Assembly: GCF_030651915.1 (NCBI RefSeq)
Contig: NZ_JAUSBV010000008.1
Span: 124,001 to 188,000 of the forward strand
DNA from: Parvibaculum sp.
Lineage (GTDB): Bacteria > Pseudomonadota > Alphaproteobacteria > Parvibaculales > Parvibaculaceae
Length of the DNA stretch: 64,000 nt
Direction: 5' to 3'
A model generated the notes under the pieces. That model searched no databases. It was not told where the DNA came from and saw only the letters and a program-made list of their open reading frames with translations. Positions 6,126 to 28,766 of the stretch are shown in pieces; position 1 is the stretch's first letter; each line of letters begins with the position of its first letter. Made by a program: the position numbers and the translations under genes.

Positions 6126-6665
6126 CTACTTAGCGCCAGCGGTTTGATTGGCTGTGAACGCCTCGCCACCGAGCTTCATGGCAGCGCCGAAGTAATCCGG
6201 GGCAGTTCCTTTGGGCACGGAGTTTATGCGGTTCTGCATCGTCGTCTTAGCACCGTCTAGCTGAAGCACGGCGCCGGTGCGGTTCCACTGTGTCTGACGC
6301 TGCGAGGCACCGATTAGGCGGTTCTCAGCAGCGCTGAAGTCGTCCATCAGTGCCTTGACGGAGAGGCCGCCTGTGCCTGCTTCACCGGCTGAAGTCGCGA
6401 CAGTGGCGCGGCGACGCGCGCCTTCGCGCTGCGTGGCAGTCGTGTTGTCGGCCTCCTGCTGGTCCTGTTGACCGAGCGCGGCGTTGGACTGGTTGATGTT
6501 ATCGACGAACGCCTGCTGCGCGTTCAGTGTGTTCTGCTGCTGCTGCGCATCCTGCGCCTTCTGCGCGGCGCTCTGTGACACGATGCTGCCGATCGCCGAC
6601 GCGGCACTCATCGCCAAGCTTATGTACATAGCGGTGGTTGTGGTGATCGTTACCGGCTCACACAT
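6126..6665 (-). CDS. Internal virion protein, gp14-like
   Basis: A 179-residue protein with a hydrophobic N-terminal segment (MYISLAMSAASAIGSIVSQ, about residues 12-30) followed by a Gln/Ala-rich coiled-coil region (AQQQQNTLNAQQAF) and RRRATVATSAGEAGTGG. This pattern is typical of the T7 gp14 family, which lodges in the outer membrane during ejection. ATG 6665 (MCEPVTITT) is chosen because upstream in-frame codons overlap the gp13-like gene. It overlaps that gene by 8 bases. The call is supported by both pattern and position. Confidence 0.78.
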   Translation of the reverse strand: MCEPVTITTTTAMYISLAMSAASAIGSIVSQSAAQKAQDAQQQQNTLNAQQAFVDNINQSNAALGQQDQQEADNTTATQREGARRRATVATSAGEAGTGGLSVKALMDDFSAAENRLIGASQRQTQWNRTGAVLQLDGAKTTMQNRINSVPKGTAPDYFGAAMKLGGEAFTANQTAGAK

Positions 6666-7116
6666 TTCGGTGTCTTTCGTAGTGGATGAATGGGGTTCTA
6701 GCGCGGCCGTGCGCTGGTGACACGCCAACACGCTTGAAGCCGGCCCACGTTATTAGACGGGCGTGGAGCGTGTTTCGCGCATCAGCGGTGCATGTCAGGG
6801 TCGGGTATGCGATCTGCTGCGCGTCGAGCCACCCGCGAGAGCGGCGTAAGAAAGCGGAGGCGTGCGTTTCCAGTGCAGGCGTGCTCAGGAGCCACACAGC
6901 GCCCGAGCCTGTCACAGGAACGATGCCGAAGGCTGCCACAGGCACACCGTCAGCAGTTCCTACGAGACACGGCGCGCTGTCGGCTAGGCCACTCACCAGA
7001 ACGGAGAGCGGTGTCCTTCCAGACGCGGCCGCAATCTCGGCAACGTCCGCCTCGCGGAGGCGCGGCGCGAGCCACAGAATGTCCTCAACCGTTGCGAGGC
7101 GGACGTTGTAATCCAT
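6658..7116 (-). CDS. gp13-like protein, GNAT-like fold (DUF2833 type)
   Basis: This 152-residue protein starts MDYNVRLATVEDILWLAPRLREADVAEI and contains GVPVAAFGIVPV and AWLDAQ-like segments in a GNAT acetyltransferase-like layout, ending with WAGFKRVG. That layout is shared with the T7 gp13 / DUF2833 family found between tail tubular B and gp14. T7 gp13 is needed for assembly of the internal core but is not itself abundant in virions. The ATG overlaps the TGA of the gp12-like gene (TGATG), implying translational coupling. No proof of acetyltransferase activity can be drawn. Confidence 0.7.
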   Translation of the reverse strand: MDYNVRLATVEDILWLAPRLREADVAEIAAASGRTPLSVLVSGLADSAPCLVGTADGVPVAAFGIVPVTGSGAVWLLSTPALETHASAFLRRSRGWLDAQQIAYPTLTCTADARNTLHARLITWAGFKRVGVSPAHGRARTPFIHYERHRNV

Positions 7117-9548: not shown

Positions 9549-10160
9549 CTATGAAATGACACCACCGCCACCCGGACGCCTGCGAAGGACGTCGGCGACT
9601 GAGTATGTGTCGAAAATGGAAAAGTCGGCGCTGCGTGCCTCTGCGTTTTCAAACGCTGCACGCGCGGAGCGCTCATCGTCCTTGTCGAACATGTCGCTCG
9701 TGGTAGAGCCGATGATCTTCTGCTGGAAGCGGCGCACTGCAATCACGAGGACGTACCAGCGCGCAGCCTGCGGAAGTTCCATGAACGGAAGCGCGAGGAT
9801 GACGTCAGCCAGCACGACTGAACTGAACGTGTACGAACGCGAGCGCTTGTCGTACAGGCGAGCGCCGCGCACGACAGGGTCGATGCCGCTGCCGCGCTTC
9901 AAGTCAGCGCTCAGGACGTTGTTAGGCACGGCAATGTGGCCGTCGATGTCGGGGGTCAGGGGGAAGTTGTATTCACTGTTGAAGTCCCACCCCGGCGTCT
10001 GAACCTGTAGGTTGGCCTCCGAGAGGTACTTCTTGGCGATCGCAACGTCCATCGGAAGGGCGCCGGAAAGCGTGTTGACGGGCGCCTCGGAGATCGACAG
10101 GAGCATTGAGTTGACTGCCTCAAGCTCGGTCGTCGGGACGGGTACGGGTAGTTCTGACAT
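9549..10160 (-). CDS. Tail tubular protein A (gp11-like adaptor)
   Basis: This 203-residue protein has the typical family pattern: ELEAVNSMLLSISEAPVNTL near the N-terminus, then GWDFNSEYNFPLTPD and RLYDKRSRSYTF. Length matches T7 gp11 (196). It forms the ring between portal and nozzle. It lies just after the capsid gene and its terminator, so expression likely depends on read-through of that terminator, as for T7 genes 11 and 12. Confidence 0.94.
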   Translation of the reverse strand: MSELPVPVPTTELEAVNSMLLSISEAPVNTLSGALPMDVAIAKKYLSEANLQVQTPGWDFNSEYNFPLTPDIDGHIAVPNNVLSADLKRGSGIDPVVRGARLYDKRSRSYTFSSVVLADVILALPFMELPQAARWYVLVIAVRRFQQKIIGSTTSDMFDKDDERSARAAFENAEARSADFSIFDTYSVADVLRRRPGGGGVIS

Positions 10161-10226: not shown

Positions 10227-11180
10227 TTACGCGATCTTAACTTCGACCGCGCACTCGGGACGCAGCAGGCCGTGGCCCATCGCGTACTTCGCGACCATCA
10301 GGGTGCCCTGATACATCGTCGCAAAGTCGCCATCGTCGGCAGTCTTCTGAACCGCAAGGTCCATCAGCTTCACCGTGCCGACAGCGGACTTCTGGAACAC
10401 GGCGGCTGCCACGTTCGTGAAGGTGCCCGAGTAGGTGTTGTTCTCACCGGAGGCGCCGGCAACCACGCCCTGCGGCAGGTTGTTCGACTTCACGATGACG
10501 ATGTCGGAGATACGCGTGATCTTGCCGTCGCTGTACGAGCCGGCGCCATTCCAGTCCTTGTTCAGAACCTTCGTGGTCTGCGCGAGCAGGTAATACTGGG
10601 CCGGCTTGACGATCGCATAGCGGTCGTTCTCGGGCACGTCCTTCTCGTCGAGCACCTGCGCGGCATCGAAGATCGAGCCGGCAAGGCTTTCGCCGTTGGT
10701 GCGGGCGTCGGCATCCGTGATGGCCGAGCCGCCGAAGGCGCCGGTGACGACGGCCGAAGCGCGGGCGGCGAGGATCGCAACCTGAAGAAGCTTCGTGTCG
10801 TAGGCGCGCGCGAGGGCCGCGCCAAGCTGCGCCGAGTAGATCGAGCGCACGTCGTAGTGGTTCTTCGCCTCGTCGATGCTGGCGATGAACGTGTCGGCGA
10901 CGAGCAGGTCGTCGATCGAGATGGTACGTTCGCCGTGGCGGATTTGGTTCGCGCCGAGGATTTGGTTGCCCGGCGTGTGGTAGGCGGCGTTCGCCTTCCA
11001 CGTTGCGGGGAACTGGGCGCTCTTGCCGTGCTCGATGGTGCGGACGATGTGCTTGTCCGACATCACTTCGGTTTCGTTGAAGGCCGTGAGGACTTCACCG
11101 CCGAAGACCTTCAGGAAGAGAGCGTCCGACGCGCCGGCGAGGTTCGCCTGACCGAGCGGGGAGACAGTCATGTTCGACAT
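10227..11180 (-). CDS. Major capsid protein (gp10-like)
   Basis: A 317-residue protein with the T7-like capsid pattern: FLKVFGGEVLTAFNETEVM near the start, SAQFPATWKANAAYHTPG, ERTISIDDLLVADTFIASIDEAKNHYDVR, and AQYYLLAQTTKVLNKDW. It belongs to the HK97-fold coat proteins of Autographiviridae. T7 gp10A is 345 residues. A good AAGGA ribosome-binding site lies upstream of ATG 11180. Two phage-type promoters lie in the 310-base leader and a terminator follows, consistent with very high late expression. Confidence 0.96.
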   Translation of the reverse strand: MSNMTVSPLGQANLAGASDALFLKVFGGEVLTAFNETEVMSDKHIVRTIEHGKSAQFPATWKANAAYHTPGNQILGANQIRHGERTISIDDLLVADTFIASIDEAKNHYDVRSIYSAQLGAALARAYDTKLLQVAILAARASAVVTGAFGGSAITDADARTNGESLAGSIFDAAQVLDEKDVPENDRYAIVKPAQYYLLAQTTKVLNKDWNGAGSYSDGKITRISDIVIVKSNNLPQGVVAGASGENNTYSGTFTNVAAAVFQKSAVGTVKLMDLAVQKTADDGDFATMYQGTLMVAKYAMGHGLLRPECAVEVKIA

Positions 11181-11894: not shown

Positions 11895-12698
11895 TTACCG
11901 GAGGTTGTGGGAGACGGCGAGACGCTTCTGAACGTCGGCGTGGTACGCCTTGTCACCGGACTTGTAGCGGGCGTCCGACATCGCGCGTGTCACTTCCTGC
12001 ATCGAGCCGAAAGGCTGCACAGTTGGCGTGTTCGTGTCGGCACCGTGCACCAAGTTCGGCGTGTTGCTGTCCGAGTTCGCATGCTTGCTCGACAGCCACT
12101 CGACGGCCATGCGGGCGGTCTTGGCATTGCCACTTTCAATCATGGCATCATAAGCACTACGTTCGTCAGCGGTGAGGGTTTCGGAAGCCCACGCAAGTAT
12201 CTCGGTGAACTTCTCCTGACCACCAGCGGCGGCGATGATCGACGCGCTCTCAGCGTCAGCGATCGTCTGCGCAGCGGCAGGGCCGGCAGTCATCGCGTTC
12301 TTGTACGCGTCAACCGTTGCCCGGTCGAAGCCTTTGGCCTCAAGCGCGGAGTACGTGGCGTCCGAGAGGGCGCCTGTCTCAGCGAACTCAGCGTTGTAGG
12401 CCGCGAGATCGAGGCCGACGTCGGCGAGGACGCGCGAGGCAGCGTCGTGAAGCTTCGCGGCGTCGTTCGGCGTCTCGACAGGCGGGACAGCGTCCGGCTT
12501 CGCGGGGTCGGTGTCCGGCTTCGCGGGATCAGCGTCCGGTGCCTTGCCATCCATCTTGGCGCGGAGCGCTGCGTAGGCGTCGGCAAGCGCTTCCGGCTTG
12601 TCGAACTGCTCAGGCAGCCACTCGGGGCGATCAACGGCAGGTGCGGCGACGGGCGCCTCAGACGTCGTGGGCGCGGCGCCGAACACAGCGGTCGTCAT
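11895..12698 (-). CDS. Capsid assembly scaffolding protein (gp9-like)
   Basis: The 267-residue product is acidic and low in complexity at the N-terminus, with a characteristic early motif RPEWLPEQFDKPEALADAYAAL and a repeated ADPAKPDTDPAKPDA stretch. The C-terminal half is helical and ends in basic residues that in this family bind the coat protein. It lies between the portal block and the capsid block, as gene 9 does in T7. Length is close to T7 gp9 (307). Confidence 0.85.
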   Translation of the reverse strand: MTTAVFGAAPTTSEAPVAAPAVDRPEWLPEQFDKPEALADAYAALRAKMDGKAPDADPAKPDTDPAKPDAVPPVETPNDAAKLHDAASRVLADVGLDLAAYNAEFAETGALSDATYSALEAKGFDRATVDAYKNAMTAGPAAAQTIADAESASIIAAAGGQEKFTEILAWASETLTADERSAYDAMIESGNAKTARMAVEWLSSKHANSDSNTPNLVHGADTNTPTVQPFGSMQEVTRAMSDARYKSGDKAYHADVQKRLAVSHNLR

Positions 12699-12699
12699 A

Positions 12700-12990
12700 T
12701 CAGTAGTCCTCGCGGAGCGAACCGGAGGGCATCGTCACGCGGTTCTTGAGCGTCGTGACCACGCCTTCAACAACGCGCACGGCGCCGTCGTCGAGGATGA
12801 CTTCCGGGGCGGTGACGGGCTGCGGCACGGCGGCGACGGCGGCTTCGGCGACGTACAGGCGCGCGACAGCCTCTTCGTCGGAGAGCACCGGCGACAGCGG
12901 CTCAGTGTGGTCGGTGGGGGTCGGCTCGACGACGGCGTCAGGCGCGGTGGCGGGCGTCGGCGCGGGCGTCGCGCCTTTGATCTTGCTCAT
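12700..12990 (-). CDS. Unknown phage protein between portal and scaffold
   Basis: A 96-residue acidic protein, Pro/Ala/Thr-rich at the N-terminus (SKIKGATPAPTPATAPDAVVEPTPT) and ending TMPSGSLREDY. No family is recognised. Its start overlaps the portal stop by four bases and its stop is next to the scaffold start, so it is translationally coupled to both. The position suggests a minor head-assembly role, which is only an inference. Confidence 0.6.
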   Translation of the reverse strand: MSKIKGATPAPTPATAPDAVVEPTPTDHTEPLSPVLSDEEAVARLYVAEAAVAAVPQPVTAPEVILDDGAVRVVEGVVTTLKNRVTMPSGSLREDY

Positions 12991-14528
12991 TGCGGTGTAG
13001 TTCCCTTCGTTTGGTCAGCAGCCATGCCGCCGATTTGCTTCATTGCTTCAGGGCCGAGGCGATCGACCATCTGCGTCATCTGCGCTTGCTTCTGTTCTTC
13101 AGCGACTTGCTCGTCCGTCTTCAGGAGGCCAGTCACGTCCATGCTCAAGGCAGCGGCGCGGCGGCGTAGGTACTCGTCCATGTTAAGACGTGCAAGACCC
13201 TGCTCTCCTACCTTCGCGAGCAGATCGCCGACGAACAGGTCGAGCTTGCGCAAGTCCTGACCACGGCCGAGCGCTTCGATGCCCGTTATGATGACGGGGT
13301 TCACGACGTTCGCAGGCAGCTTTGGCAGGCCCTTAGCGAGGGCGATGCGGCGTTTGACGTAGGGCAGTTGAAACTCAGACGACATCAGCGAGTAGAGGCC
13401 ACCAAGGGCGTCCTCAAGTTCGCTCGCGACGTACCGGATTTCTTCTGCGGTGACACGTTCAGCGGAGCGCTGCACGGTCGAGTTCAGTAGGAAAGCAAAG
13501 CTGAGACGCTGTTCAATCTCAGATGCGATTTCCTTGGCTACACGGAAGTCAGCGTACTTGTTCAGTTGAAGCACGGTGACATCTTGTGAGTTGCCAGAGC
13601 GGACAGCACCGTTCGGTGCCTCGGCGATAACGCGCTGTTGCGTGGTCCCGTTCGGGTTCACGAGGAACAGCACTTTCGCGGCGGCGGCGGCGCCCTCAAC
13701 AATGGCGCGGGTCAGAGCTTCGAGCGACTTCAGGTCGCCGAAATACTCTTCGACATGGCCCCGACCGTAATCCTCGCCGTCAATGCGTGTCCAGCGGAGG
13801 GGAATGTAGGGGGACTTGTCGAGGGGAAACGTGCCGCGCGTCTCAGGGATCACGAGGCCGTTTGTTTCCTGATACACCTCCCACTTGTCGGGAAGGCGTT
13901 TGATGTGTGTGTACACCTCGACCGTCTCATCGTCCTTGCGGCCGTCGCGGGTGAGTTGATCCACAAGCGCCGCGTCGAAGCGGTGGTACTTGCGGAACAC
14001 TTCAGGAGCGACGTCTTCGCGCGTGACGATCTCAATGGCGTTACCCATCGGGTCGCGTTTACAGACGTAGCGGTGCAGGTGAAACACGCGCAGGCCGTCC
14101 TTGCCTATGTAGAGGAGGACGTTGCCTGCGATAACGAGATGCTTGAAGCCCTCGAACACCGGGTTGCGGTCGCCGGCACTCTCGATCTCTTTCATCACAC
14201 TGCGCTCGTATTTGGAGAGCGCAGTCTCAACCTCAGCGGTTGAGCCTTCCATCGCCATGATCTCCTCAAGCACGTCATCCGCGACCACCATGCGGAGGAT
14301 CGGCGAATTGGGCGGGAGCAATGCGAGGATGAGCTTGTTCGCGAGGTTGTTGACGCCGCGCGCGCCGATGCTTTGGAAGGGCGTCGGGAGCGTGGCAGAG
14401 GACGAGTGGGACTGCGGCGGGACGATGGCGGGGATGGTGAGCTTGGAGCAGTCACGCGCGCGGGTCAGAAAAGGTTCGCGGGCGCTTTCGAGTTGGAGAT
14501 ACCGCTTCTGTGCGGCGCCCTTCGCCAT
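12987..14528 (-). CDS. Portal protein (gp8-like head-tail connector)
   Basis: The 513-residue protein contains the T7-type portal signatures: TPFQSIGARGVNNLANKLILALLP near residues 48-72, IALRWTRI-like PYIPLRWTRIDGEDYGRGHVEEYFGDLKSLE, and NSTVQRSAERVTAEEIRYVASELEDALGGLY. Length agrees with T7 gp8 (536). It forms the dodecameric ring at the packaging vertex. ATG 14528 is followed by AKGAAQKRYLQLES, typical of the family. It directly follows a 65-residue small gene. Confidence 0.95.
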   Translation of the reverse strand: MAKGAAQKRYLQLESAREPFLTRARDCSKLTIPAIVPPQSHSSSATLPTPFQSIGARGVNNLANKLILALLPPNSPILRMVVADDVLEEIMAMEGSTAEVETALSKYERSVMKEIESAGDRNPVFEGFKHLVIAGNVLLYIGKDGLRVFHLHRYVCKRDPMGNAIEIVTREDVAPEVFRKYHRFDAALVDQLTRDGRKDDETVEVYTHIKRLPDKWEVYQETNGLVIPETRGTFPLDKSPYIPLRWTRIDGEDYGRGHVEEYFGDLKSLEALTRAIVEGAAAAAKVLFLVNPNGTTQQRVIAEAPNGAVRSGNSQDVTVLQLNKYADFRVAKEIASEIEQRLSFAFLLNSTVQRSAERVTAEEIRYVASELEDALGGLYSLMSSEFQLPYVKRRIALAKGLPKLPANVVNPVIITGIEALGRGQDLRKLDLFVGDLLAKVGEQGLARLNMDEYLRRRAAALSMDVTGLLKTDEQVAEEQKQAQMTQMVDRLGPEAMKQIGGMAADQTKGTTPQ

Positions 14529-15121: not shown

Positions 15122-15726
15122 AGGCGCCGCTCGATGGGGAACCCGGCACCGTCGAGGGCCGCGTCCACCTCAGCCCGGAGACACTTCAGGTCGAAGTTGT
15201 TCGGGATGACAATGTCAGCGAGATCGGGCGGGAGCGCTCCTTCCGAGGCGTGCGCCTGAACGAGGGCCTGCGGGCCGGCGCTGCGGTTGACCGTCCAGAC
15301 TTGGCCGCCGATGGTGCGGACAGCGTGGTACTCGTTCATAAACCGCATGTCGTCGATGACGACGCGTCGGCCCTGACCAAGAAGGCGGGTCGCTTCACCG
15401 ACTGCGCTGTTCAGCCAGAAGTCGTAGCCCATGATGGCGCGGCCCCACTCCGTGCCGAGCGTCTGCATCGCGCGGCGGGGCGAGGAACCGTCGAGGTAAT
15501 CCGTCGGGACGTCCTTCAGGGTGCCTTCGAGGTACTGAGGAAGCAGGTCGATCGGACACCCACGCGCAATCATCAGAATACGGATCATGTCCTTCAGCGC
15601 ACCGGCGAACTTCACGCGGGTGAACCCGTGTGTCGTGATGAGGTGGTTCGCTACTTCAGACTTACCGCTCCCTGCGGGCGCGTGGATTGCGATGAGGCGG
15701 TCGTAGCTCAGGCTGGCGGGTTCCAC
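15118..15726 (-). CDS. Deoxynucleoside monophosphate kinase
   Basis: A 202-residue P-loop kinase with Walker A APAGSGKSE (about residues 16-24), a conserved LGTEWGRAIMGYDFWL segment and VVIDDMRFMNEYHAV. These match the phage dNMP kinase family (T4 gp1-type), which phosphorylates dNMPs to feed phage DNA synthesis. The GTG start at 15726 overlaps the exonuclease gene end, so the two are coupled. Such kinases occur in several T7-like phages of alphaproteobacteria but not in T7 itself. Confidence 0.85.
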   Translation of the reverse strand: MEPASLSYDRLIAIHAPAGSGKSEVANHLITTHGFTRVKFAGALKDMIRILMIARGCPIDLLPQYLEGTLKDVPTDYLDGSSPRRAMQTLGTEWGRAIMGYDFWLNSAVGEATRLLGQGRRVVIDDMRFMNEYHAVRTIGGQVWTVNRSAGPQALVQAHASEGALPPDLADIVIPNNFDLKCLRAEVDAALDGAGFPIERRL

Positions 15727-16544
15727 AGAATAGGTTCCTTCTTCTTGAAGTTGTAGTCTGCGGCGCGCAGGATGCGGGCGACGCGGGCGTTCTGAAGGGC
15801 GACGCCTTCGCTAAGGCCGGCGCGTCGGTACTGACTGACGACAGCCTCCCACGTCGAGCAGGCGCGCGTCGGTTCCCACACAGTCTGCGTGGTGCCCTTG
15901 TTCTTGCCGCGCGTGATCGTCTTCTCGAACGGCTCGTAGAGCAGCGGCTCGTCAAGGATTTCATTCGCAGCCTTGGGGCCGACACCGGGACACCCGGAGT
16001 AACCGTCAGTGGCATCGCCCGTGAGTGTCTGGAACAGGTGGAACCTGTCCGCGTCAGCTTCGGAGACGTCAGTGATGATCGCCTTGCCGTTCTCTGTGAC
16101 GGAGCGGCAGAACAGTCCGGGGATTGTGTACATGTCCTTGTCGAGCGACCAGATGATCCGCTCACCCTTGCAGATGACACTGCTCGTGGAGACGATGCCG
16201 AGGATGTCGTCACCCTCAAGGCCGGGGCGTACCATCGCGGAGTAGTCGTCGATGAGCACCTGACGGAGCGTTGGAAGAAGCATGGGCTTGCGGACATCCT
16301 TGCGGTTGCCCTTGTACGTCGGGAGGATGCCGTACCTGAAGTTCTCCGTGTCTGTCAGCGCGACGATTGCAGCGTCGGCGTCACACGCGTTCACAATGAA
16401 GGCGATGTTGTCGTGCAGGCGCGCAATGGCCGGCTGTTCCTCGGCGTGAAGCGTCCACAGGTTGTCATTCCACTTCACTGCGCGCTCGGCGGCAACCGCA
16501 ATGCGGAACGCCGCGATGTCGCCGTCGATTAGAACTGTCCTCAT
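15708..16544 (-). CDS. 5'-3' exonuclease (gp6-like, FEN fold)
   Basis: The 278-residue protein begins MRTVLIDGDIAAFRIA, where the Asp residues are the first metal ligands, and contains GLEGDDILGI and GDATDGYSGCPGVGPKAANEI, the acidic and helix-hairpin-helix signatures of flap-type 5' nucleases. T7 gp6 removes primers, degrades host DNA and aids recombination. ATG 16544 has a GAAGGAAAT ribosome-binding site. The gene overlaps both the GIY-YIG-like gene upstream and the kinase downstream. Confidence 0.9.
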   Translation of the reverse strand: MRTVLIDGDIAAFRIAVAAERAVKWNDNLWTLHAEEQPAIARLHDNIAFIVNACDADAAIVALTDTENFRYGILPTYKGNRKDVRKPMLLPTLRQVLIDDYSAMVRPGLEGDDILGIVSTSSVICKGERIIWSLDKDMYTIPGLFCRSVTENGKAIITDVSEADADRFHLFQTLTGDATDGYSGCPGVGPKAANEILDEPLLYEPFEKTITRGKNKGTTQTVWEPTRACSTWEAVVSQYRRAGLSEGVALQNARVARILRAADYNFKKKEPILWNPPA

Positions 16545-16843
16545 ATTTCCTTCTGGCTTTCTACGCGGCGGCCTACACGGGTGATAACCCGCGCGGCGGC
16601 CTGCGCGTTCATTCGGAACCACTCGCCCCTACGCTCGTGAGCGCGGCGGGCAAGTTCAAGATGGCACTCAAACTCCCCTGCCCGGCTGTTCGTGAACGGA
16701 ACAGACGCGACCAGTACGAAGTCGCGCATGGGAGAGTACGTCTGGTAACGTGCGAGGCGCTTGTCAGCGCTGATGGCGTGGCCGCACTTGACCCACTCAG
16801 GCCAAGCACGGTTCGTGATGACGTAGACGAAGCCGGCGCTAAT
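16541..16843 (-). CDS. GIY-YIG/T5orf172-like small protein, probable AUU start
   Basis: The frame after the polymerase stop encodes GFVYVITNRAWPEWVKCGHAISADKRLARYQT, which fits the GIY-YIG fold of the T5orf172/MUG113 type (VYVITN, then VKCG, then an Arg helix). A further conserved-looking segment EFECHLELARRAHERRGEWF follows. No ATG, GTG or TTG lies in frame near the domain start. ATT at 16843 overlaps the polymerase TAG (ATTAG) and gives 100 residues, with GGGA eight bases upstream. Alternatives are a frameshift fusion to the polymerase or initiation elsewhere. Role could be DNA nicking or homing; this is not established. Confidence 0.6.
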   Translation of the reverse strand: MSAGFVYVITNRAWPEWVKCGHAISADKRLARYQTYSPMRDFVLVASVPFTNSRAGEFECHLELARRAHERRGEWFRMNAQAAARVITRVGRRVESQKEI

Positions 16844-18758
16844 GGGTCTGTTCCCAGTTGTCGCCGCACTTGTACGCGCCGTCGATTGGACACCGGAGGG
16901 CGAGGACTTCACCGGCCAGTTGGAAGGACTTAACGGCAATGGCGCCGACAGTCTCAGCGATCTCGTCACGGGCGAGCGTTTGAAACTCGTCGTGAACGTG
17001 AGCGACCATCGCGAAGTCGCGGGTCCACAGTAGTCCAGCCGCCGCGAGTGCGTCGTCGAACAGGACCGTCGCAAGCTTGACCACGACAGCGCCGGCGCCT
17101 TGCAGCAGGGCGTTGAGCGCCGCATGCTTGGAGCGTACCGGGATGCGTCGTCCGTCCAACCCAGTGAGGTATCCGCGAGCATCGACGGCTTTGTCGATCG
17201 CGTCCTTCAGGTACTTGAGGGCGGGCAAGGTCGCGAGGAACTTTGCCTTGAGCTTCTTGCCTGCTGCCGCACCACCGCCGACGATACTGCCGATCTTCGC
17301 GTCACCAGCGCCGTAGAGGTAGGCGTAGATGAAGCGCTTTGCGATGTTGTTACGGGCGCGCAGGTGATGCTCGTTGTGATCGTCGAACACCGTACCTGCG
17401 GGAACGAGGCCGAGCGCGATGGCGTTCACCCAGTGGATGTCACCGTGGAGGAGCGCGTCGCGGTAGGCGCCGTCATCGTAGCGGGCCATGTAATGCGCCA
17501 GCATGCGAAGCTCTAGGCCAGCAGCGTCGGCGCCTACAAGGCGGAACCCCTTGATGGCAGTGAACAGCGCGCGACATTCAGCGCCGTAAGGCTTGCCGAC
17601 AGCAGGCACCTGCCCGATGTTCGGCTTACTGTGTGTGCAGCGTCCTGTGACAGCGCCGTTGGTGTTTACTTCGCCGTGGATGCGGCCGCCGCGCACTAGC
17701 TTGAGCCACGCACCGTTGCCCTCGGCAAGCTGGCCGATGCGCTTCTGAAGCATGAAGGCTTCCGCCAACAGCTTCGCTTCCGGGTATTCCAGTTCGCTCA
17801 GGATTTCGTCGTCGATGGTCGGCTTGCCGTCCTTCGTGAACTCCTCAGGTTCCCACCCGTGCAGGGCGATGAGCCTGTTCGATACGTGGTCGCGAGAGTT
17901 CACGTTGAATTGCGTGAGCGTGACGCGTGTGTAGTTGCAGCCTTCGACGGTACTGGCGCGCGTTACGTCCTTGTAGTTGAGCGTCTTCTTCGGGGAGACA
18001 AGCTCTAGGGCTGTCCACCACGGCGCGAACGCGACGAGGAGTTCCTTCTCAATCTCGTCGCGGCGTGACGCGAGGACATTGTACAGGCGCTCGCCGGCCG
18101 CGACATCGAACGGGAAGCCCGCGTTCTCCATCTTGAGAATGACGTGTTGAAACCTGTGCTCCAAGTCCAGAGCGCGTGGGTCATAGTTCTTTGAGAGACA
18201 CACCTCGTGGAAGCGGGCGGTGACGGCGACGTCCTGCTCACAGTACGCCTGCATCATCGGGTTCCACTCAGCCCACGGATCAATACCAAGTTCCTTGCAG
18301 CGCGCCTTGTAGTCGTCTTTCGGAAAACCGAGACGCAGGCCCCACGCTTCCAGTGAGTGCCGGCCGTACATGTTGCCGGGGAAGTTTGGGCGGCGGCGGC
18401 GGTTGTTGATGTCGTCGTCGCGAAGCGCGGGCCAGATGACGCGGGACATGACAAGCGTGTCCACGATCTTGCAGTGAGCCGGCAGGCGCCAGTTCGGGTA
18501 GACCTTCGTGATCGCGGGAATGTCGTACTTGATGATGTTCTGCCCAACGACTTCGTCGGCGGCAGCTAGAAGTTCAAGTCCCTGTGCGATCGACATGTGA
18601 ACAAGCACGCCTTCCTTGGCGCGCGGGTTGCCGTGTTCGGCATTGTCGTGGCACGAGAACACCACGTTGGTGTCAAGGTCACGCAGAACGAGTGAATGGA
18701 TTTTGGTAAGGCTTTCAAGAAGCCCGTTGGTTTCGCTGTCGAAGTAATAGCGGCTCAT
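16839..18758 (-). CDS. DNA polymerase, family A (gp5-like)
   Basis: A 639-residue T7-type replicative polymerase. The N-terminal 3'-5' exonuclease begins YYFDSETNGLLES (metal-binding Asp and Glu). Polymerase motif A is VGADAAGLELRMLAHY, motif B is RNNIAKRFIYAYLYGAG, and motif C is HVHDEF. All catalytic residues are present. ATG 18758 is preferred over 18770 because GAGAGG sits at proper spacing before it. T7 polymerase uses host thioredoxin as processivity factor; a thioredoxin-binding insert was not assessed. The stop codon overlaps the next frame. Confidence 0.96.
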   Translation of the reverse strand: MSRYYFDSETNGLLESLTKIHSLVLRDLDTNVVFSCHDNAEHGNPRAKEGVLVHMSIAQGLELLAAADEVVGQNIIKYDIPAITKVYPNWRLPAHCKIVDTLVMSRVIWPALRDDDINNRRRRPNFPGNMYGRHSLEAWGLRLGFPKDDYKARCKELGIDPWAEWNPMMQAYCEQDVAVTARFHEVCLSKNYDPRALDLEHRFQHVILKMENAGFPFDVAAGERLYNVLASRRDEIEKELLVAFAPWWTALELVSPKKTLNYKDVTRASTVEGCNYTRVTLTQFNVNSRDHVSNRLIALHGWEPEEFTKDGKPTIDDEILSELEYPEAKLLAEAFMLQKRIGQLAEGNGAWLKLVRGGRIHGEVNTNGAVTGRCTHSKPNIGQVPAVGKPYGAECRALFTAIKGFRLVGADAAGLELRMLAHYMARYDDGAYRDALLHGDIHWVNAIALGLVPAGTVFDDHNEHHLRARNNIAKRFIYAYLYGAGDAKIGSIVGGGAAAGKKLKAKFLATLPALKYLKDAIDKAVDARGYLTGLDGRRIPVRSKHAALNALLQGAGAVVVKLATVLFDDALAAAGLLWTRDFAMVAHVHDEFQTLARDEIAETVGAIAVKSFQLAGEVLALRCPIDGAYKCGDNWEQTH

Positions 18759-18785
18759 ACGCCCTCTCATTGGAGTAGCTGGTTA

Positions 18786-18915
18786 GACCGCTTGTCCCTC
18801 CCGCGAGGGCTGCGCGCGCACGGGCGCGCTTCCTCAGACACTCAGCCGAAGCGAATGTTCAGGGACGCAGCGAAAGCCAGCGCAGCGCGCCTACTCGCGG
18901 GAGGGTGTAGCGGTC
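18786..18915 (-). ncRNA. Structured non-coding segment between primase and polymerase
   Basis: A 22-base arm at 18786-18807 pairs with 18894-18915 at 19 of 22 positions, including a 12-base perfect block CTCGCGGGAGGG. Inside, GGCGCGCT (18824-18831) pairs with AGCGCGCC (18884-18891), giving nested stems and a large G+C-rich structure. It starts at the primase stop codon and ends about 28 bases before the polymerase start. No reading frame with phage-like content spans it. It may be an mRNA stability, attenuation or translation-control element, or a free RNA; class unknown. Confidence 0.6.
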
Positions 18916-20572
18916 AGAAGTCCGTGCTGTCGGTTTCGTTGCCGAAGGCCGGAGGTTCTTTTGACGGGTCGTCGGTTGGATAGAGACGGCCTGTGTCAAC
19001 CTCGTAGCCGAGGAAGAAGCACTTGCCTGTTGCCTGTCCGGTGTAGCGGTCCTTCAGCACACGGAGTGTTGTCGTCTGCTGGATGCGCGGGTCTTCAGCC
19101 TGCTGGTCACGCTCAAGTCCGATCATGTAGTGCGACCAGAACCCGATAGCGCGGGAACCTTTGAAGTTCCTGATGGTGACACGGCCGCCCTCTTCGTGAG
19201 GGACGCCGTCCGCCGTCGTCAGATGACTGACGAAGATGAGGATGATGTTCAGTTCTTTGACCAGTGATCCTATCTCGGCCATGATCCGCTCAAGCTCGTC
19301 CTTCTCGCTGCCGACGTTCCCGCCTGTGGCGAGCGCGGTGAGATGGTCGAGGTAGTAGATGACGATGCCTTCGGTGTGGAACAGGAAGCGGATGCGATCG
19401 GCAATCTTGTCCCACTCGGCGGAACCGAAGTGGTCGTACATGTGCAGACGCGGCTCGGCGTCGATCAGGTCGAGCGCCGCGACAAGTTCCTCCTGCTCCC
19501 ACCCGCCGAAGCGTGCAGGTATGTGGAAGCGCTTGCCCGCGAATTTTCCGCACACACGCTTCGCAGTCTCCTCCGGCTGCTGTTCGAGGAAGAACACGGC
19601 AACCTTCTGACCGAGCGTGTTGATGTCGTATTCAACCTGCTGCGTGATGAAGTCGGTCTTGCCGACGCCGGTGCCGGCGCCTAGCGCGTATGCCTCGCCG
19701 GGGCGGCGGCCGTATGTGACTTCGTTCAGCCCTTCGTGCCACCACGGGAAGCCCTCAACAGGCGCCGCGAGGACGCGGTCGCGGATGTCCGAGATCGTTA
19801 CAATCCCGTCCGGGCGGAGCGTCTTGGCCTCGAAGATGGCGGCGCGCAGTTCGTCGGCGCGGCCCGCCTTCAGCATCTCGTTCGCGTCCTTCAGAGGAAG
19901 CTTCGCGACCTTGCACTGCCCCGGCTTGAAAAGCGTGAAGCAATCCATCGTGGCGGCGCGGCCGGCATCGTCCTCGTCAAACAGGAGGACGACTTCCTCG
20001 AAGCCTGACAGCCACTCAAGCTGCGCGGCGAGGGACTTGCGGGCGTTGTTAGCGCCCAGTGGTATGGAGACGACAGGCCACTTGTTGCCCTGCACCTGCG
20101 ACACGGAGAGCGCGTCGATCTCGCCCTCAGTGATGACGACGCGTCGGCCGCCATCGCGCCACAGGTGTTGGCCGTACAGACCGGCAGCCTTTATGTCGCC
20201 ACGTATGGCGAAGCTCTTGTCCTTGAAGCGCACCTTCTGCGCGACGAGGGTGCCGGACGTGTCGCGGTAGTTCGCGATCTGCACGCCCTGCCCCATGTGG
20301 TCGCCTTGGCGGTAGTCCCATTTGCGGCACGTCTCTTCGTCGATGCAGCGGGAGGCGAGACGCATAGCTGTCCCGCCTTGTATCAAGTCTTGCGACATCG
20401 GTGATCGTTCCTTGTGCGTGACTGGGCGTCCTCCCTCAGCGGGCTGATAGTGTCCGCATCCAAAGCACCAGCCGTGCCCGTCCGAGTAGCGCGCAAGGTT
20501 GTTGCGGCTACCGCACTCCGGGCACGGCTCTTTGTGGAGGTAGGTGGCCTCAGTGTCGTGATCGTGTGACAC
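18914..20572 (-). CDS. DNA primase-helicase (gp4-like)
   Basis: A 552-residue bifunctional protein. The N-terminal zinc-binding motif is CPECG...WCFGCG (residues about 18-40). The primase TOPRIM region has VVITEGEIDALSV and VVLLFDEDDAGR. The helicase domain has Walker A GAGTGVGKTDF and Walker B-like IVIYYLDHLTAL, with GSRAIGFWSHYMIGLERD further on. This is the full T7 gp4A-type layout. It starts at GTG 20572 within the end of the preceding small gene. It unwinds the fork and primes lagging-strand synthesis with the polymerase encoded next. Confidence 0.96.
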   Translation of the reverse strand: MSHDHDTEATYLHKEPCPECGSRNNLARYSDGHGWCFGCGHYQPAEGGRPVTHKERSPMSQDLIQGGTAMRLASRCIDEETCRKWDYRQGDHMGQGVQIANYRDTSGTLVAQKVRFKDKSFAIRGDIKAAGLYGQHLWRDGGRRVVITEGEIDALSVSQVQGNKWPVVSIPLGANNARKSLAAQLEWLSGFEEVVLLFDEDDAGRAATMDCFTLFKPGQCKVAKLPLKDANEMLKAGRADELRAAIFEAKTLRPDGIVTISDIRDRVLAAPVEGFPWWHEGLNEVTYGRRPGEAYALGAGTGVGKTDFITQQVEYDINTLGQKVAVFFLEQQPEETAKRVCGKFAGKRFHIPARFGGWEQEELVAALDLIDAEPRLHMYDHFGSAEWDKIADRIRFLFHTEGIVIYYLDHLTALATGGNVGSEKDELERIMAEIGSLVKELNIILIFVSHLTTADGVPHEEGGRVTIRNFKGSRAIGFWSHYMIGLERDQQAEDPRIQQTTTLRVLKDRYTGQATGKCFFLGYEVDTGRLYPTDDPSKEPPAFGNETDSTDF

Positions 20573-21976: not shown

Positions 21977-22437
21977 TTTGATTTTGCTTTCTCGATGGCG
22001 GCGAAGCGTCGCGGTTCAGGCGGTTCGGCCAGCCACTCAGGGGGAATACGTTTGCGCGCGAATTTGAAGCCGTGCTTCTGACACCACATTGCGTAAGTCG
22101 TCTTGCTCGTCTTGGAGATTTTCTCGGACGGGTTTGAGAACACGAAGCGAATGTCGATGTCGGGGTGCTGTTCCTTCAGGAGGATGTGCTTCTGCCGGTC
22201 GGCCGTAACGAACCGCCCCTTCGTCTCAACGATGATGCCGTTGAACAGGAGCAGGAAGTCTGGCGTGTATTTCGCACGGCGCTCAGGCACGGTGTAGGCG
22301 ACCTTGAACGTCTCGAACTCGAAGGCAGCGCCGGAGGCGGTGAGGTCTTGAGCGGTGACTTCTTCAAGTCCGCTTCGATACCCCGCCGCCTTCGCACGTT
22401 GCCTTGGATCAGAAGTCCGTTTCGCCGGGCGCTGCAC
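21973..22437 (-). CDS. Endonuclease I, Holliday junction resolvase (gp3-like)
   Basis: The core AKAAGYRSGLEE...YTPDFLLLFNGIIVETKGRFVTADRQKH carries the T7 endonuclease I catalytic set (Glu of GLEE, Asp of PDF, Glu and Lys of VETKG). It resolves branched DNA and helps degrade host DNA. GTG 22437 (154 residues) is chosen to limit overlap with the SSB gene; an ATG at 22524 would extend it by 29 low-complexity residues and is an alternative. T7 gp3 is 149 residues, which favours the shorter form. Confidence 0.92.
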   Translation of the reverse strand: MQRPAKRTSDPRQRAKAAGYRSGLEEVTAQDLTASGAAFEFETFKVAYTVPERRAKYTPDFLLLFNGIIVETKGRFVTADRQKHILLKEQHPDIDIRFVFSNPSEKISKTSKTTYAMWCQKHGFKFARKRIPPEWLAEPPEPRRFAAIEKAKSK

Positions 22438-23146
22438 GCTGCTCGCCTGCCTGCTCGCCGTCACCGGACGCGTCGTCGGTGCTGTCGTCGGACGGGTCAT
22501 ACTCATACCCGCCGTCCTCTTCACCGAAGCCGTAGCTCGAAGCGGCGCGCGAACCCTTCGACACGAGGTCGATGATCTGCACAGCGTCGAGGTTCAGCTT
22601 GAGGCCGGCAGCGCCGGTCCCTGCGATGAAGTAGGGCGACGCCTTGTAGGACACCTTGGCGACAGTGCCGCCCCAAATGTCGGGCGCCTTCGCCATCGCG
22701 ATACCCTTCGCGTCGAAGATCGCGACTTCACGGTTCCAGCGCTTGCCCGCCTTCGGGCCGTTCTTGTAGACGCCGGACGCGGTGGTGACGAACTTGAACT
22801 CGACATCGCCTGTCGGTTCTTCCGTTTCCTTGTCGTAGATCGCGGTGTAGAGCGCGTTGATCTGCACGCCCTTCTTGCCGTTCTTCGCTTCGAGCTTCTT
22901 GCGGACGTCAACCTTCAGTTCCTTGAAGGCTTGCTCGGCCAGCGAGACAGCCTCGTCATGGAGCGGCTGAAGCACCTTCAGGAGCGCGTCGCACTCCGGC
23001 GAGCCGAGACGGAGGACACCCTTGGTCGAGAACTCACCGTCCTCTTTCGGGTAATCCTTCGAGCCGTAGTCAGGCTCGTTCAGCTTCGGCCACTTCAGCG
23101 TCATGCGCGGCGACGTGAGCGTCGGCAGCTTTTTCTTTTCGGTCAT
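22409..23146 (-). CDS. Single-stranded DNA-binding protein (gp2.5-like, DUF2815)
   Basis: A 245-residue protein with the DUF2815 pattern: RMTLKWPKLNEPDYG, later SGVYKNGPKAGKRWNREVAIFDAKG and SYKASPYFIAGTGAAGLKLNLDAVQIIDLV. The C-terminus is strongly acidic (EYDPSDDSTDDASGDGE) and ends in Phe, as in T7 gp2.5, where the acidic tail binds polymerase and helicase. It lies upstream of endonuclease I, as in T7. Confidence 0.94.
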   Translation of the reverse strand: MTEKKKLPTLTSPRMTLKWPKLNEPDYGSKDYPKEDGEFSTKGVLRLGSPECDALLKVLQPLHDEAVSLAEQAFKELKVDVRKKLEAKNGKKGVQINALYTAIYDKETEEPTGDVEFKFVTTASGVYKNGPKAGKRWNREVAIFDAKGIAMAKAPDIWGGTVAKVSYKASPYFIAGTGAAGLKLNLDAVQIIDLVSKGSRAASSYGFGEEDGGYEYDPSDDSTDDASGDGEQAGEQRAAPGETDF

Positions 23147-25023: not shown

Positions 25024-25042
25024 TCACGGGTGATTAGGTCAG
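25024..25042. repeat. 19-base repeat, copy 1
   Basis: CACGGGTGATTAGGTCAGG, at the end of the RNA polymerase gene, matches CACGGGTGAGTAGGTCAGG at 28262-28280 in 18 of 19 bases, same orientation. The two copies bracket the polymerase and first early gene. Meaning is unknown. Confidence 0.6.
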
Positions 25043-27570
25043 GAGAAAAAAAACTCGGAGTGCTTCACCTGCTCCAAGTCGAGCAAGCCACGCGGCGGGA
25101 CGGCGGCGATCTCAGCGCCGATGTCGAGCATCCGCCCCACCTCCTCGCGGAAGTTCTCAAGCACGTCGTTCTCGTCGTACATGTCCACGAAGGCTTCGCG
25201 GATACAGGCGGCGAACGTGTTGGTGTGCGCTGCATGTGTGCCGAAGCTATCGTGGATCATGGCGAAGTGCTTGACGCCGTTGTTGATGGCAAGGTCCACC
25301 GTGATGCAGAGGTGGGCCGCGTCGTTGGCGTGGACGAAGTTTGGGCTGATGCCGTTCGCCTGCCCGCGCACGTCCAGCTTCGATGTCTGTTCGAGGAGCG
25401 TCAGGTAGACCAGCGTGTCACCGAAGTGCGTCTTGACGCGGTTGGCCTTGCTCTCGAAGTAGGACTGAAGGACCGGGAACCCGGCAGGCGTAACCCACGA
25501 CACGGGCCGGCCGTCCTTGGCCAGCACGCGTGCAGCACCTTGCAGCCAGTTCATCACCGACCGGGCGCCGATCACCACGTCGGAGATCGAGGACCAGATG
25601 TGCTTCGCCAGATAGATGGCAGCAGAGAACGAGCGTTCGTCTCCGAAGACATCCGCCCTGCCGTCTTCGTAAATCTTCTCGCGCATGTAATCCTCGACAA
25701 ACGAGCGGGACGAGAACAGCGTGCCGCCGTATGGAAGGACCATGACGCTGCGCTTAGTCGCGCCGCGTGAGACGGTGCCGCCCTCGAACTCAAGCCACAA
25801 GGCAGCGAGGACATGCGCGGGAACGGGAGGCTTCTTCCCTGCCGCGACCGCCGCAACGGCAGCCTTGACATCCTCCTCGGTGACACCTTCCGCGATGTCT
25901 TGGTGCAGCTTCTCCAACACCTTGTTGGCTACCTGCTGATAGATGTCTTGACGACCGGCGCCGGGTATCAGGTTCACGGCCGCACCGCCGTGCTCGTCGC
26001 GGAGCATGGCAGAGAAATGCTGGATGCCGGAACAGGTGGCATCCATCGCGACCGGGAGGTGGCTGACGTATCCGTAGCCTGTGGTCTGTAGCGCTGCCCA
26101 CTCGTAGCAGAACGCGAGGAAGCACCACGGGCTGTCTGCCTCTGTCCACCACAGATCGGCGAACGGGTCGGCGGCGATGGCTTCGATGCGATCCGAGTTG
26201 TCCGTCACCCACTGAACACGCTCGTCCAGTGTGACCTTGTCCTCTCCGAACGTGTTGGCACCATGAACCGCAAGCCAGCCGACCGCCACGTCGTCGGTGA
26301 TGGCGGCGCCCTCGGCGAACGTGAGCAGCGCCTTGGACAGGTCGTTACCCTGCGGGTTGAGGTACGCCGGCACGGCATAGATGCGCGAGCGGAAGTCTAG
26401 CTGGTACGGGAAGAACAGCGCGACTTCGTCCGCATACCCCATAGCTGTCTGCAAGGTGCGGGCGGTTTGAACGCGGCGGGAACGCAGGCGGGCGTTCTCG
26501 TCGTGCAGCTTGGTAGCTGCACGCTTCCACTCGGCGAGCGTGGCGGCCTGCTCCTCGGTCATGTCCTCGCGAGCGAGCGTGCGCGGCAGCGGGCAAGGCG
26601 GGACCGTGTAGCTGTCGCGCGCGGGAAGCTTGCAGATGGTGAGGCCGCGCTCCCACGCCTCGTTGGCGGTGGCGAGGACATCAGCGTTGACCTTCCACGG
26701 CGTGCGCTGCATGGCGTTGACCGTGGTGTAGACCTTCTCCATCTCATCGACACGCTCGGAAAGTTCCTGAAGGTAGTTCCGATTGGTCGTCTTCACCAGC
26801 GACAGCGGGCGGAGGGCGGCGGTGTGGTAGGCGCCTGTGAACGGTGACGTCCAGTCCTTCGGAGGGATCAGGAACGGCAGCTTGACAGGCATCAGCAGTT
26901 CACACCGGCCGTGCATCTGTTCGATCCACTGGCACAACGCCTCTGTCGGTTCGAGATACAGGCGCGTGTCGTTCTTGCTCACCGTCTTACTGCGCACCTC
27001 GACCAGCCCGAGCGACTGCACCATCTCAATCAGCTTCATGCCGAGATGAACCTTGTCCGTCTTGGGCCAATCCTCCCACACAACGTCCGACTTGTTGAAG
27101 GCGTTGTTCATGGCAGTCCGTCGATGGCGGGTGTGCTTTGACGTTACCTTCTCCTGTACGAAGCGGAAGAAACGCGGCGACTGCGTGGCGAACTCGCGGA
27201 ACCGCACCTCGTCTTCGAGGCGGTTGGCGACCGACGTGGCGACGCCTTGAACAAGCATAGTGCGTGTGCCCTGCCCGCCAAGCGTGACCTTGAGCGCGAT
27301 GAAGGCCGCGACCTGCGGCTCGATCATGTTCAGGTACTTGGCCGCGACCGCGCGCCGGCCGCGCTTGGCCGCCATCGTGGTTGTGACGAAGTCCGCGATC
27401 ATCACTGACAGCGGCTCGATGTACTTCTTCATCAGCATGACAACCGGAGGCGTGGTGCTCACGTCCTTCGACTGCTCGGCCTTGGCGATGGCGGAGCGAT
27501 ACGCCTCGACGCCTTGGCTCACCATGTTCTCTTCAAGCGCGACCTGTCGGTCGAACAGGACTTGATCCAT
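25039..27570 (-). CDS. Single-subunit DNA-directed RNA polymerase (T7 type)
   Basis: An 843-residue T7-family polymerase. Key motifs are present: PVAMDATCSGIQHFS (catalytic Asp), TKRSVMVLPYGGT (Lys and Tyr of the O helix), and MIHDSFGTHA (second catalytic Asp). VSWVTPAGFPVLQSYF precedes the promoter-specificity loop region, and the C-terminus HSEFFFS matches the T7-type aromatic foot. It would transcribe the middle and late genes from the TTTAGGT promoters in this window. The ribosome-binding site GGAAGG precedes ATG 27570. T7 polymerase is 883 residues, so the length fits. Confidence 0.97.
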   Translation of the reverse strand: MDQVLFDRQVALEENMVSQGVEAYRSAIAKAEQSKDVSTTPPVVMLMKKYIEPLSVMIADFVTTTMAAKRGRRAVAAKYLNMIEPQVAAFIALKVTLGGQGTRTMLVQGVATSVANRLEDEVRFREFATQSPRFFRFVQEKVTSKHTRHRRTAMNNAFNKSDVVWEDWPKTDKVHLGMKLIEMVQSLGLVEVRSKTVSKNDTRLYLEPTEALCQWIEQMHGRCELLMPVKLPFLIPPKDWTSPFTGAYHTAALRPLSLVKTTNRNYLQELSERVDEMEKVYTTVNAMQRTPWKVNADVLATANEAWERGLTICKLPARDSYTVPPCPLPRTLAREDMTEEQAATLAEWKRAATKLHDENARLRSRRVQTARTLQTAMGYADEVALFFPYQLDFRSRIYAVPAYLNPQGNDLSKALLTFAEGAAITDDVAVGWLAVHGANTFGEDKVTLDERVQWVTDNSDRIEAIAADPFADLWWTEADSPWCFLAFCYEWAALQTTGYGYVSHLPVAMDATCSGIQHFSAMLRDEHGGAAVNLIPGAGRQDIYQQVANKVLEKLHQDIAEGVTEEDVKAAVAAVAAGKKPPVPAHVLAALWLEFEGGTVSRGATKRSVMVLPYGGTLFSSRSFVEDYMREKIYEDGRADVFGDERSFSAAIYLAKHIWSSISDVVIGARSVMNWLQGAARVLAKDGRPVSWVTPAGFPVLQSYFESKANRVKTHFGDTLVYLTLLEQTSKLDVRGQANGISPNFVHANDAAHLCITVDLAINNGVKHFAMIHDSFGTHAAHTNTFAACIREAFVDMYDENDVLENFREEVGRMLDIGAEIAAVPPRGLLDLEQVKHSEFFFS

Positions 27571-28281: not shown

Positions 28282-28313
28282 CAAACAAAAACCCCCGGCG
28301 ATAAGCCGAGGGT
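28282..28313 (-). terminator. Rho-independent terminator at prophage edge
   Basis: On the minus strand, ACCCTCGGC pairs with GCCGGGGGT (eight of nine) around a five-base loop, then TTTTTGTTT. It lies about 45 bases downstream of the tRNA-Leu 5' half. It would stop chromosomal transcription from entering the phage early genes. Confidence 0.88.
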
Positions 28314-28354
28314 TCCTGCCGTTTTTGATGTCTTATGCACCTGTGGAAAGCGGC

Positions 28355-28401
28355 GCAGCAGATTTTAAGTCTGCTGCGTATACCAGTTTCGCCAAGGGGC
28401 C
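28355..28401 (-). tRNA. 5' half of tRNA-Leu(UAA), split at prophage junction
   Basis: Read on the minus strand, GGCCCCT could be the 5' acceptor strand. It is followed by TG, a D-arm of the form GCGAAACTGGTATACGC, and an anticodon arm GCAGA-CTTAAAA-TCTGC with anticodon TAA at 28367-28365. This is the usual bacterial tRNA-Leu(UAA) layout. The variable arm, T-arm (GGTTCGA) and matching 3' acceptor are missing; phage-side sequence follows after about 28355. This is a fragment and most likely one end of the attachment site. Confidence 0.82.
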
Positions 28402-28514: not shown

Positions 28515-28766
28515 TTAGCCGGCAAGGCCCTGCCAGACGGGCCAGCAATTGTTGCCGGAGCTGGCGGCGAGCGTCGCCTGGGCTTCCTTGGCGTTGGCGC
28601 CGTCGGCGGTCTTGACGCTGTCCGCGCCGCCCGTGCACCACACATAGAACTGATGCGTTCCGGCCTTCGACTGCGCGTCGAAGCTGGAATCGAGCGCCGA
28701 AGCCGCGCCGGCCAGCATCAGTGCCGCGCCGGCAACCAGGCCCACAAATCCGATGGTCTTCTTCAT
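28515..28766 (-). CDS. Small secreted protein, unknown
   Basis: An 83-residue protein with a clear signal peptide (MKKTIGFVGLVAGAALMLAGAASA, cleavage likely after ASA). The mature part (LDSSFDAQSKAGTHQFYVWCTGGADSV...) is about 59 residues with two Cys that could form a disulfide. GAGAGAG-type ribosome-binding sequence precedes ATG 28766, and a terminator follows. It is the first complete chromosomal gene beside the prophage. I do not recognise the family; periplasmic location is inferred. Confidence 0.75.
   Translation of the reverse strand: MKKTIGFVGLVAGAALMLAGAASALDSSFDAQSKAGTHQFYVWCTGGADSVKTADGANAKEAQATLAASSGNNCWPVWQGLAG

Follow-up and report, generated by a model that had tools for sequence, protein, structure and literature searches.

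A T7-like prophage of Parvibaculum sp. interrupts the host tRNA-Leu(UAA) gene and carries a complete tRNA-Leu(UAA) of its own

In this Parvibaculum genome, a T7-like phage has very probably split the host tRNA-Leu(UAA) gene through 17-bp attP/attB recombination and carries a complete replacement for it, the mode of integration known as tRNA-dependent lysogeny. The window, that is, the whole stretch of 64,000 nucleotides that was analysed (C10:124001-188000), belongs to a 473-kb contig, one of 11 in a draft genome of 3.50 Mb; the prophage extends past the left end of the window. The features of tRNA-dependent lysogeny that can be read from sequence are present: an integrase, an attB within a host tRNA gene, a carried tRNA-Leu(UAA), and a 17-bp core with a functional tRNA rebuilt at neither junction. 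The arrangement of a classic tRNA-restoring prophage, where the element supplies the missing half and the tRNA is whole at one junction, is not found.

Two halves of a host gene

On the minus strand, positions 28401-28357 of the window hold the opening 45 nt of the tRNA-Leu(UAA) gene of the host, from the 5′ acceptor strand through the D arm to the anticodon arm with its UAA anticodon. The gene is split in the anticodon arm, and the right copy of the att core lies at 28357-28373 on the same strand. Neither ARAGORN nor Rfam (gathering threshold) finds a tRNA in the whole window, and inspection by eye finds no 3′ half adjoining 28355, where the sequence-only reading had allowed for one. That reading had described a broken tRNA in reversed polarity and had pointed to the left junction as the place to look, and it was right on each count: the host 5′ half is at the right junction with phage DNA from 28356 onward, the 3′ half and a repeat are found on the left, and the host gene is split at both junctions (ARAGORN calls no tRNA on the right and only the phage gene on the left).

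A search of the genome with 80 bases of the junction gives 15 matches, namely the junction itself, a 17-bp repeat, and 13 short matches (14-19 nt) that fall on other or partly overlapping stretches of the query. The repeat is an exact copy of the anticodon-arm sequence, on the same strand, at C10:112172-112188 (L009 8188-8172, minus strand), 40.2 kb to the left of the right junction and beyond the window. A repeat of 28358-28401 had been anticipated here; the 17 bp at 28357-28373 do recur, and the rest does not. Read along the minus strand, the left junction comprises a tyrosine integrase gene (L009:8742-9827; PF00589, 3.9e-20), a 129-aa ORF without Pfam family (L009 8338-8727), a complete phage tRNA-Leu(UAA) with CCA (L009 8284-8197, equal to C10:112197-112284), 8 nt, the repeat, and 42 nt ending in CCA (L009 8171-8130), which together with the core make up the host 3′ half. 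Past the junction, on the plus strand, is a host gene (L009 7438-8058) that we take to be LysE-like.

The host flanks joined at the core give an intact 87-nt tRNA-Leu(UAA) whose acceptor stem pairs perfectly over 7 bp. Because this is the intact tRNA of relatives, and the 3′ half that completes it lies at the repeat 40.2 kb away, the 45-nt fragment is no chance match. The joining also shows in silico that precise excision would restore the host gene, which is split because a 17-bp core is too short for rebuilding the tRNA at either junction. We give practically no weight to an assembly artefact that would have joined phage DNA to a broken tRNA. The genome is a draft in 11 contigs, but the halves share the 17-bp repeat, join to the perfect gene of relatives and have the same upstream neighbour, the contig is 473 kb long, and the arrangement recurs in two other genomes.

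The sequence-only reading offered two options: a phage-supplied 5′ half with a hybrid tRNA on the left, or a tRNA simply broken. Neither alone fits, since the host gene is broken and a complete, diverged phage tRNA-Leu(UAA) stands beside the left core. A hybrid tRNA restored at the left junction, as in T7-like cyanophages, would fit the polarity; the attP sites of those phages match the first half of tRNA-Leu, according to the accessible text of the report on them (PMC8776855), and six loci (L198, L203, L207, L210, L233, L247) carry a 5′ half up to the anticodon. Yet what comes before the left 17 bp is no D arm; 8 nt separate them from the CCA end of another tRNA, complete in itself, and no tRNA is read across the left core. 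The hybrid is thus refuted by the sequence at L009 8130-8284, and we regard it as extremely improbable.

The joined 87-nt sequence was searched in 46 genomes (this one and 45 relatives). Of the 26 relatives of the same genus, 16 have the whole gene (94-100% identity), in each case called by ARAGORN as tRNA-Leu(UAA); G024 and G008 match the joined sequence perfectly over its whole length, and the other fourteen are 94-99% identical. Among the remaining congeners, six have a diverged tRNA-Leu(UAA) (G005, G009, G013, G015, G019, G022), one has the same gene split by another element (G018, see below), and in three (G020, G021, G026) neither a whole nor a diverged gene was found. The gene upstream of the tRNA fragment in the window (28515-28766, minus strand; 83 aa, no Pfam match) is also upstream of tRNA-Leu(UAA) in relatives, at 11 of the 16 loci tested; the host gene past the left junction is near the tRNA in 3 of the 16.

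The six diverged genes (L154 in G022, L155 in G013, L152 in G019, L156 in G015, L157 in G009, L158 in G005) match the gene of this genome at 76-80% and that of the phage at 78-83%, and the usual upstream host gene adjoins five of the six. They are possibly old, fixed replacements. Two loci look instead like the classic type: in G005 a whole tRNA by the usual host gene is followed after about 1 kb by a 3′ half, and in G044 an integrase gene has a whole tRNA close by, with a 3′ half of identical sequence on another contig, so that this genome was dropped as a further case.

The present genome has 46 tRNA matches, and 11 of them were typed, namely the weakest match and every one of the 10 that exceed 80 nt. 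Their leucine anticodons comprise CAA, UAG, CAG, GAG, and UAA, the last being the phage gene. There is no second tRNA-Leu(UAA) among these 11 typed tRNAs of the draft genome, and the 35 others measure 71-74 nt, too short for a leucine tRNA. As the phage tRNA is the sole tRNA-Leu(UAA) found in the draft genome, the host gene is truly broken and the whole phage gene is its stand-in.

UUA accounts for 10 of the 15,118 codons in 40 host ORFs, a rarity that possibly makes the loss of the tRNA less harmful than for a common codon. Streptomyces bldA mutants, which are without this tRNA, grow. Both points would suit a host that has merely lost tRNA-Leu(UAA) and tolerates the loss, with the phage copy inert. 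Against this, UUA is still present in 6 of the 40 ORFs, and the phage tRNA folds with all arms and a CCA end. We consider such tolerated loss unlikely to a high degree.

The prophage and the role of its tRNA

From core to core, the prophage measures 40,202 bp (C10:112172-152373), with a GC content of 0.626 against 0.619 in the flanks. Its right 28.4 kb are positions 1-28373 of the window; leftward, up to C10:112172, follow a terminase, a MarR-like regulator, the integrase, the complete tRNA-Leu(UAA), and the left core. All its genes named here within the window are on the minus strand. The first large one inside the right junction codes for a T7-like single-subunit RNA polymerase (25039-27570; PF00940, 1.3e-105; phrog_414, 5.8e-269). 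Further in, PHROGs identifies a Gp2.5-like single-stranded DNA-binding protein (22409-23146), a DNA primase/helicase (18914-20572), a DNA polymerase (16839-18770), an exonuclease (15708-16622), a head-tail adaptor that is presumably the portal (12987-14528), a head assembly or scaffolding protein (11895-12698), the major head protein (10227-11180), and two tail proteins (7116-9539 and 9549-10160). Internal virion proteins are encoded at 998-4501 and 6126-6731, with a gene lacking a PHROG match at 4504-6105 between them.

The regulator beside the integrase belongs to phrog_9665, "transcriptional regulator," and its MarR name comes from annotations of related phage records. The order MarR, integrase, RNA polymerase is also that of Roseobacter CRP-113, LUZ100, and pelagiphages such as HTVC200P. 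Because the integrase and polymerase genes lie near opposite ends of the prophage, the attP of the circular phage would be located between them. The element thus has what characterises a temperate T7-like (Autographiviridae-like) phage: a single-subunit RNA polymerase, T7-type replication and virion genes, and, in the circle, a regulator and an integrase next to the polymerase. A search of 192 genomes for close relatives of the integrase gave 27 matches at 1e-10, one being the gene itself and the rest distant (at most 44% identity); single-protein scans gave 6 distant relatives in viral contigs and 10 in genome contigs.

In the mechanism we propose, the tyrosine integrase would act on the 17-bp anticodon-arm sequence, present in the phage as attP and in the host gene as attB, and recombine the two copies; the phage's own tRNA-Leu(UAA), which lies 8 nt from the left core in the orientation of the integrase, would replace the broken gene in the lysogen. 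The phage tRNA would read the UUA codons of the lysogen, as it is the sole tRNA-Leu(UAA) gene found. That it serves the lysogen is further suggested by the codon usage of the phage, with 2 UUA among 8,817 codons in 22 genes, and by an anticodon that follows the broken gene. Loss of the phage by other means than precise excision would therefore take tRNA-Leu(UAA) away. The phage gene and the joined host gene are identical in just 62 of 90 aligned columns, so the phage tRNA was not copied lately from this host locus.

The carried gene might alternatively be a passenger, either a codon supplier for the lytic cycle or the product of an imprecise excision, and its match to the broken gene incidental. 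Phages often carry tRNAs. Imprecise excision was suggested by the authors of LUZ100 (PMC10134795, accessible part). However, the codon count just given speaks against a supplier, and codon supply as the main reason is rejected on these grounds; the low identity to the host gene speaks against recent capture from this locus; the carried and broken anticodons agree in all three T7-like lysogens; and whole tRNA and isolated core co-occur in a survey of best-scoring phage loci (both below). A passenger role is therefore most unlikely. As for its expression under the proposed replacement, the phage tRNA may be co-transcribed with the regulator and the integrase, which form one operon in LUZ100 (PMC10134795, in part); a consensus scan finds no sigma-70-like promoter near it.

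Just inside the right junction, a hairpin followed by a T run (28286-28314, minus strand; 51-nt fold of -25.7 kcal/mol) is a proposed terminator. Integration leaves the promoter of the host tRNA pointing into the phage, and the hairpin probably serves to block it from driving the phage polymerase and early genes. Counterpart hairpins occupy the corresponding place in G347, G764, and LUZ100. A consensus terminator scan returned no terminator-like site, leaving the hairpin at 28314-28286 uncalled.

Other lysogens and related phage loci

The T7-like polymerase family was searched in 385 genomes of the class (4 matches) and 398 of the phylum (6 matches), this genome being in both, and the flanks of the eight others were examined. 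Two of them show the same kind of arrangement. In G347, the 5′ half of a host tRNA-Leu(CAA) abuts the polymerase end, and the other end has an integrase (39% identity to the one described here), a whole tRNA-Leu(CAA), the core, and the host 3′ half. G764 has this layout with tRNA-Leu(UAG), except that the integrase gene has the whole tRNA on its opposite side, as in LUZ100. The joined flanks give tRNA-Leu(CAA) in G347 and tRNA-Leu(UAG) in G764, single junctions give neither, and in neither genome do the 10 tRNA matches above 80 nt include a second gene with the carried anticodon. The broken and the carried anticodon hence agree in three lysogens out of three (UAA, CAA, UAG). The reversed polarity is ordinary for this T7-like group: the host 5′ half adjoins the polymerase end in all three lysogens with both junctions readable. 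In the stretches examined of the other six genomes (G250, G316, G487, G554, G592, G654), there is no tRNA or such arrangement. Upstream of the polymerase in G250 is an integrase; in G592, one contig has the integrase towards one end and the polymerase towards the other, and the stretches examined lie outside its central 20 kb; and in those of G316, G487, G554, and G654 the queries found no integrase.

The association between carried tRNA and core was surveyed in 92 integrase loci: 12 phage records, picked from 20 listed of 732, and 80 IMG/VR loci with related integrases, found with an alignment (A1) of 11 of the 12 phage-record integrases plus the one described here. Each locus was scored for a whole tRNA-Leu(UAA) and for the anticodon-loop core CTTAAAA outside any tRNA between integrase and polymerase; 78 loci were counted, the 14 without a polymerase in view being left out. 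Among these 78, where the IMG/VR loci are the best-scoring matches listed rather than a random sample, related rows are not independent, and some 7-mer cores are chance occurrences (L160, L200, L262), 22 have tRNA and core, 1 the tRNA only, 12 the core only, and 43 neither (Fisher 7e-10). In other words, the isolated core is present in 22 of the 23 best-scoring loci with a whole tRNA-Leu(UAA) and in 12 of the 55 without. With one best-scoring locus per cluster the counts are 19, 1, 9, and 38 (Fisher 4.7e-9). The locus with tRNA only, L238, lacks an exact core and has by eye the variant GATTTAAAATC; L263 and L265 are ambiguous.

A half tRNA abutting the core is found in none of the 22 best-scoring loci with a whole tRNA and in 7 of the 12 without (Fisher 1.5e-4), or in 0 of 19 against 5 of 9 with one best-scoring locus per cluster (1.3e-3). 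Phages of the survey set therefore tend to bring either a half tRNA (5′ or 3′) or a complete tRNA rather than the two together. In 5 of the 12 loci with a core and no tRNA there is no recognisable half either, and one locus outside the 78, L202, is an exception with a whole tRNA and a 3′ half. The order integrase, tRNA, 10-11 nt, CTTAAAA, polymerase is that of L196, L209, L223, L225, L227, L229, L245, and L248, and the corresponding spacing in the prophage described here is 12 nt. The 9-mer GACTTAAAA occurs 55 times in the surveyed loci, copies inside tRNAs included, against 3-20 times for nine words taken for comparison, eight of which have an identical composition.

Other forms of carriage are seen among these loci. 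The six IMG/VR loci with a tRNA-Leu(UAA) 5′ half mentioned above have no whole tRNA, and three other IMG/VR T7-like integrase loci (L194, L232, L257) carry a 3′ half. L192 and L165 have a UAG form of the module, with a whole tRNA-Leu(UAG) and an isolated GATTTAGGTT arm after the integrase (by eye).

Known systems and whole-tRNA replacement

The following comparisons hold for the accessible parts of the papers cited. The term "tRNA-dependent lysogeny" dates from 2024, when it was defined on actinobacteriophages with evidence from mutants (Guerrero-Bustamante and Hatfull, PMC10865867), and Lj965 was named there as a possible case outside this group. The prophage described here resembles those phages in its tyrosine integrase, its attB in a host tRNA gene, the absence of a rebuilt tRNA, and a phage tRNA of the same isotype; its core of 17 bp compares with 8-17 bp in theirs. 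It differs from them in that they are mycobacteriophages and other actinobacteriophages, where the requirement was shown by phage mutants, whereas here the phage is T7-like, the gene is tRNA-Leu(UAA), and the case is known from sequence.

T7-like cases have been described since 2019. The Fonsibacter phage uv-Fonsiphage-EPL and the pelagiphages HTVC011P and HTVC025P are such cases, with the difference that they concern tRNA-Leu(TAG) and SAR11 hosts (PMC6811365). The vTRX32-1 family and RHEph01 of Rhizobium are also T7-like, with a core in a host tRNA-Leu and a whole tRNA-Leu carried as a proposed replacement (PMC8631192); by our reading, however, their 12-bp core CAGATTTAGGTT is a UAG arm, and the present one is a UAA arm of 17 bp. 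The carried tRNA of the vTRX32-1 family was proposed to be without the core and so to avoid super-integration (PMC8631192). In the Autographiviridae-like Lo5R7ANS-like prophages of Sinorhizobium meliloti, the host tRNA-Leu is inactivated in mid-gene and the same isoacceptor is carried (PMC11476347; also PMC12429752), but the isoacceptor is UAG and two strains are concerned (PMC11476347). Pseudomonas phage LUZ100 (L161) shares with the prophage described here the MarR-integrase-polymerase order, a whole tRNA-Leu(UAA), and an isolated CAACAGACTTAAAA core; it differs by a tRNA that is upstream of the integrase and antisense, and its authors could not confirm stable lysogens (PMC10134795). T7-like cyanophages carry instead the first half of tRNA-Leu (PMC8776855). 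In the accessible literature, subscription papers being mostly outside it, no T7-like replacement case for UAA or CAA was found. Whole-tRNA replacement by T7-like phages is thus already known, and within that literature UAA and CAA are added to the reported UAG cases.

Whole-tRNA replacement may extend beyond phages. In the congener G018, the same tRNA-Leu(UAA) is split at a 10-bp core, with halves 27.7 kb apart. The intervening stretch (G018:C16:39987-67773, or L149 3987-18000 plus L150 1-13773) contains genes for a MobA/MobL relaxase, a TraG-like protein, a DNA methylase, a helicase, and two integrase-family genes, and we infer that it is one mobilizable element. Its integrase has PF14659 above the cut-off and PF00589 just below it, and has no detectable similarity to the phage integrase. 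The replacement tRNA-Leu(UAA) of this element (L150:12051-12351, minus strand) is interrupted between U34 and A35 by a group I intron of 212 nt (RF00028, 54.7 bits for a gathering threshold of 50; boundaries by eye), and the joined exons read as tRNA-Leu(UAA). No UAA was found among the G018 tRNA matches longer than 80 nt (9 of 39 matches typed). The intron lies inside the sequence that the integrase recombines and so would shield the replacement gene from it. Tentatively, then, whole-tRNA replacement is not restricted to phages, the intron may conceal the G018 gene from the integrase on the DNA level without loss of function in the spliced RNA, and self-splicing introns could guard mobile replacement tRNA genes, although we hold this to be rather doubtful.

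Relatives of the intron-bearing tRNA (H21-H40) are found in 1,278 of 72,556 plasmid records, in 1,267 of them over at least 80% of the query, with 73-74% identity in the gammaproteobacterial rows listed and 81% in Bradyrhizobium. Of 385 genomes of the class, 32 also have a relative at 1e-12. The plasmid gene tables used are without RNA genes, and the intron-bearing tRNA may or may not be annotated in the original records. G018 also has a second, diverged tRNA-Leu 3′ half near an integrase-like stretch (L151 3734-3788, minus strand; G018:C17:109734-109788).

For annotation, a candidate rule is that a lone tRNA 5′ half by a T7-like RNA polymerase gene marks the end of a prophage, with the working tRNA at the other end. 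For the phages, the results suggest that the whole tRNA-Leu genes of temperate T7-like phages such as LUZ100 and the pelagiphages serve lysogeny and are no relics. For the host, the breakage of a tRNA gene that is normally needed finds its explanation: the bacterium probably depends on a viral gene for UUA.
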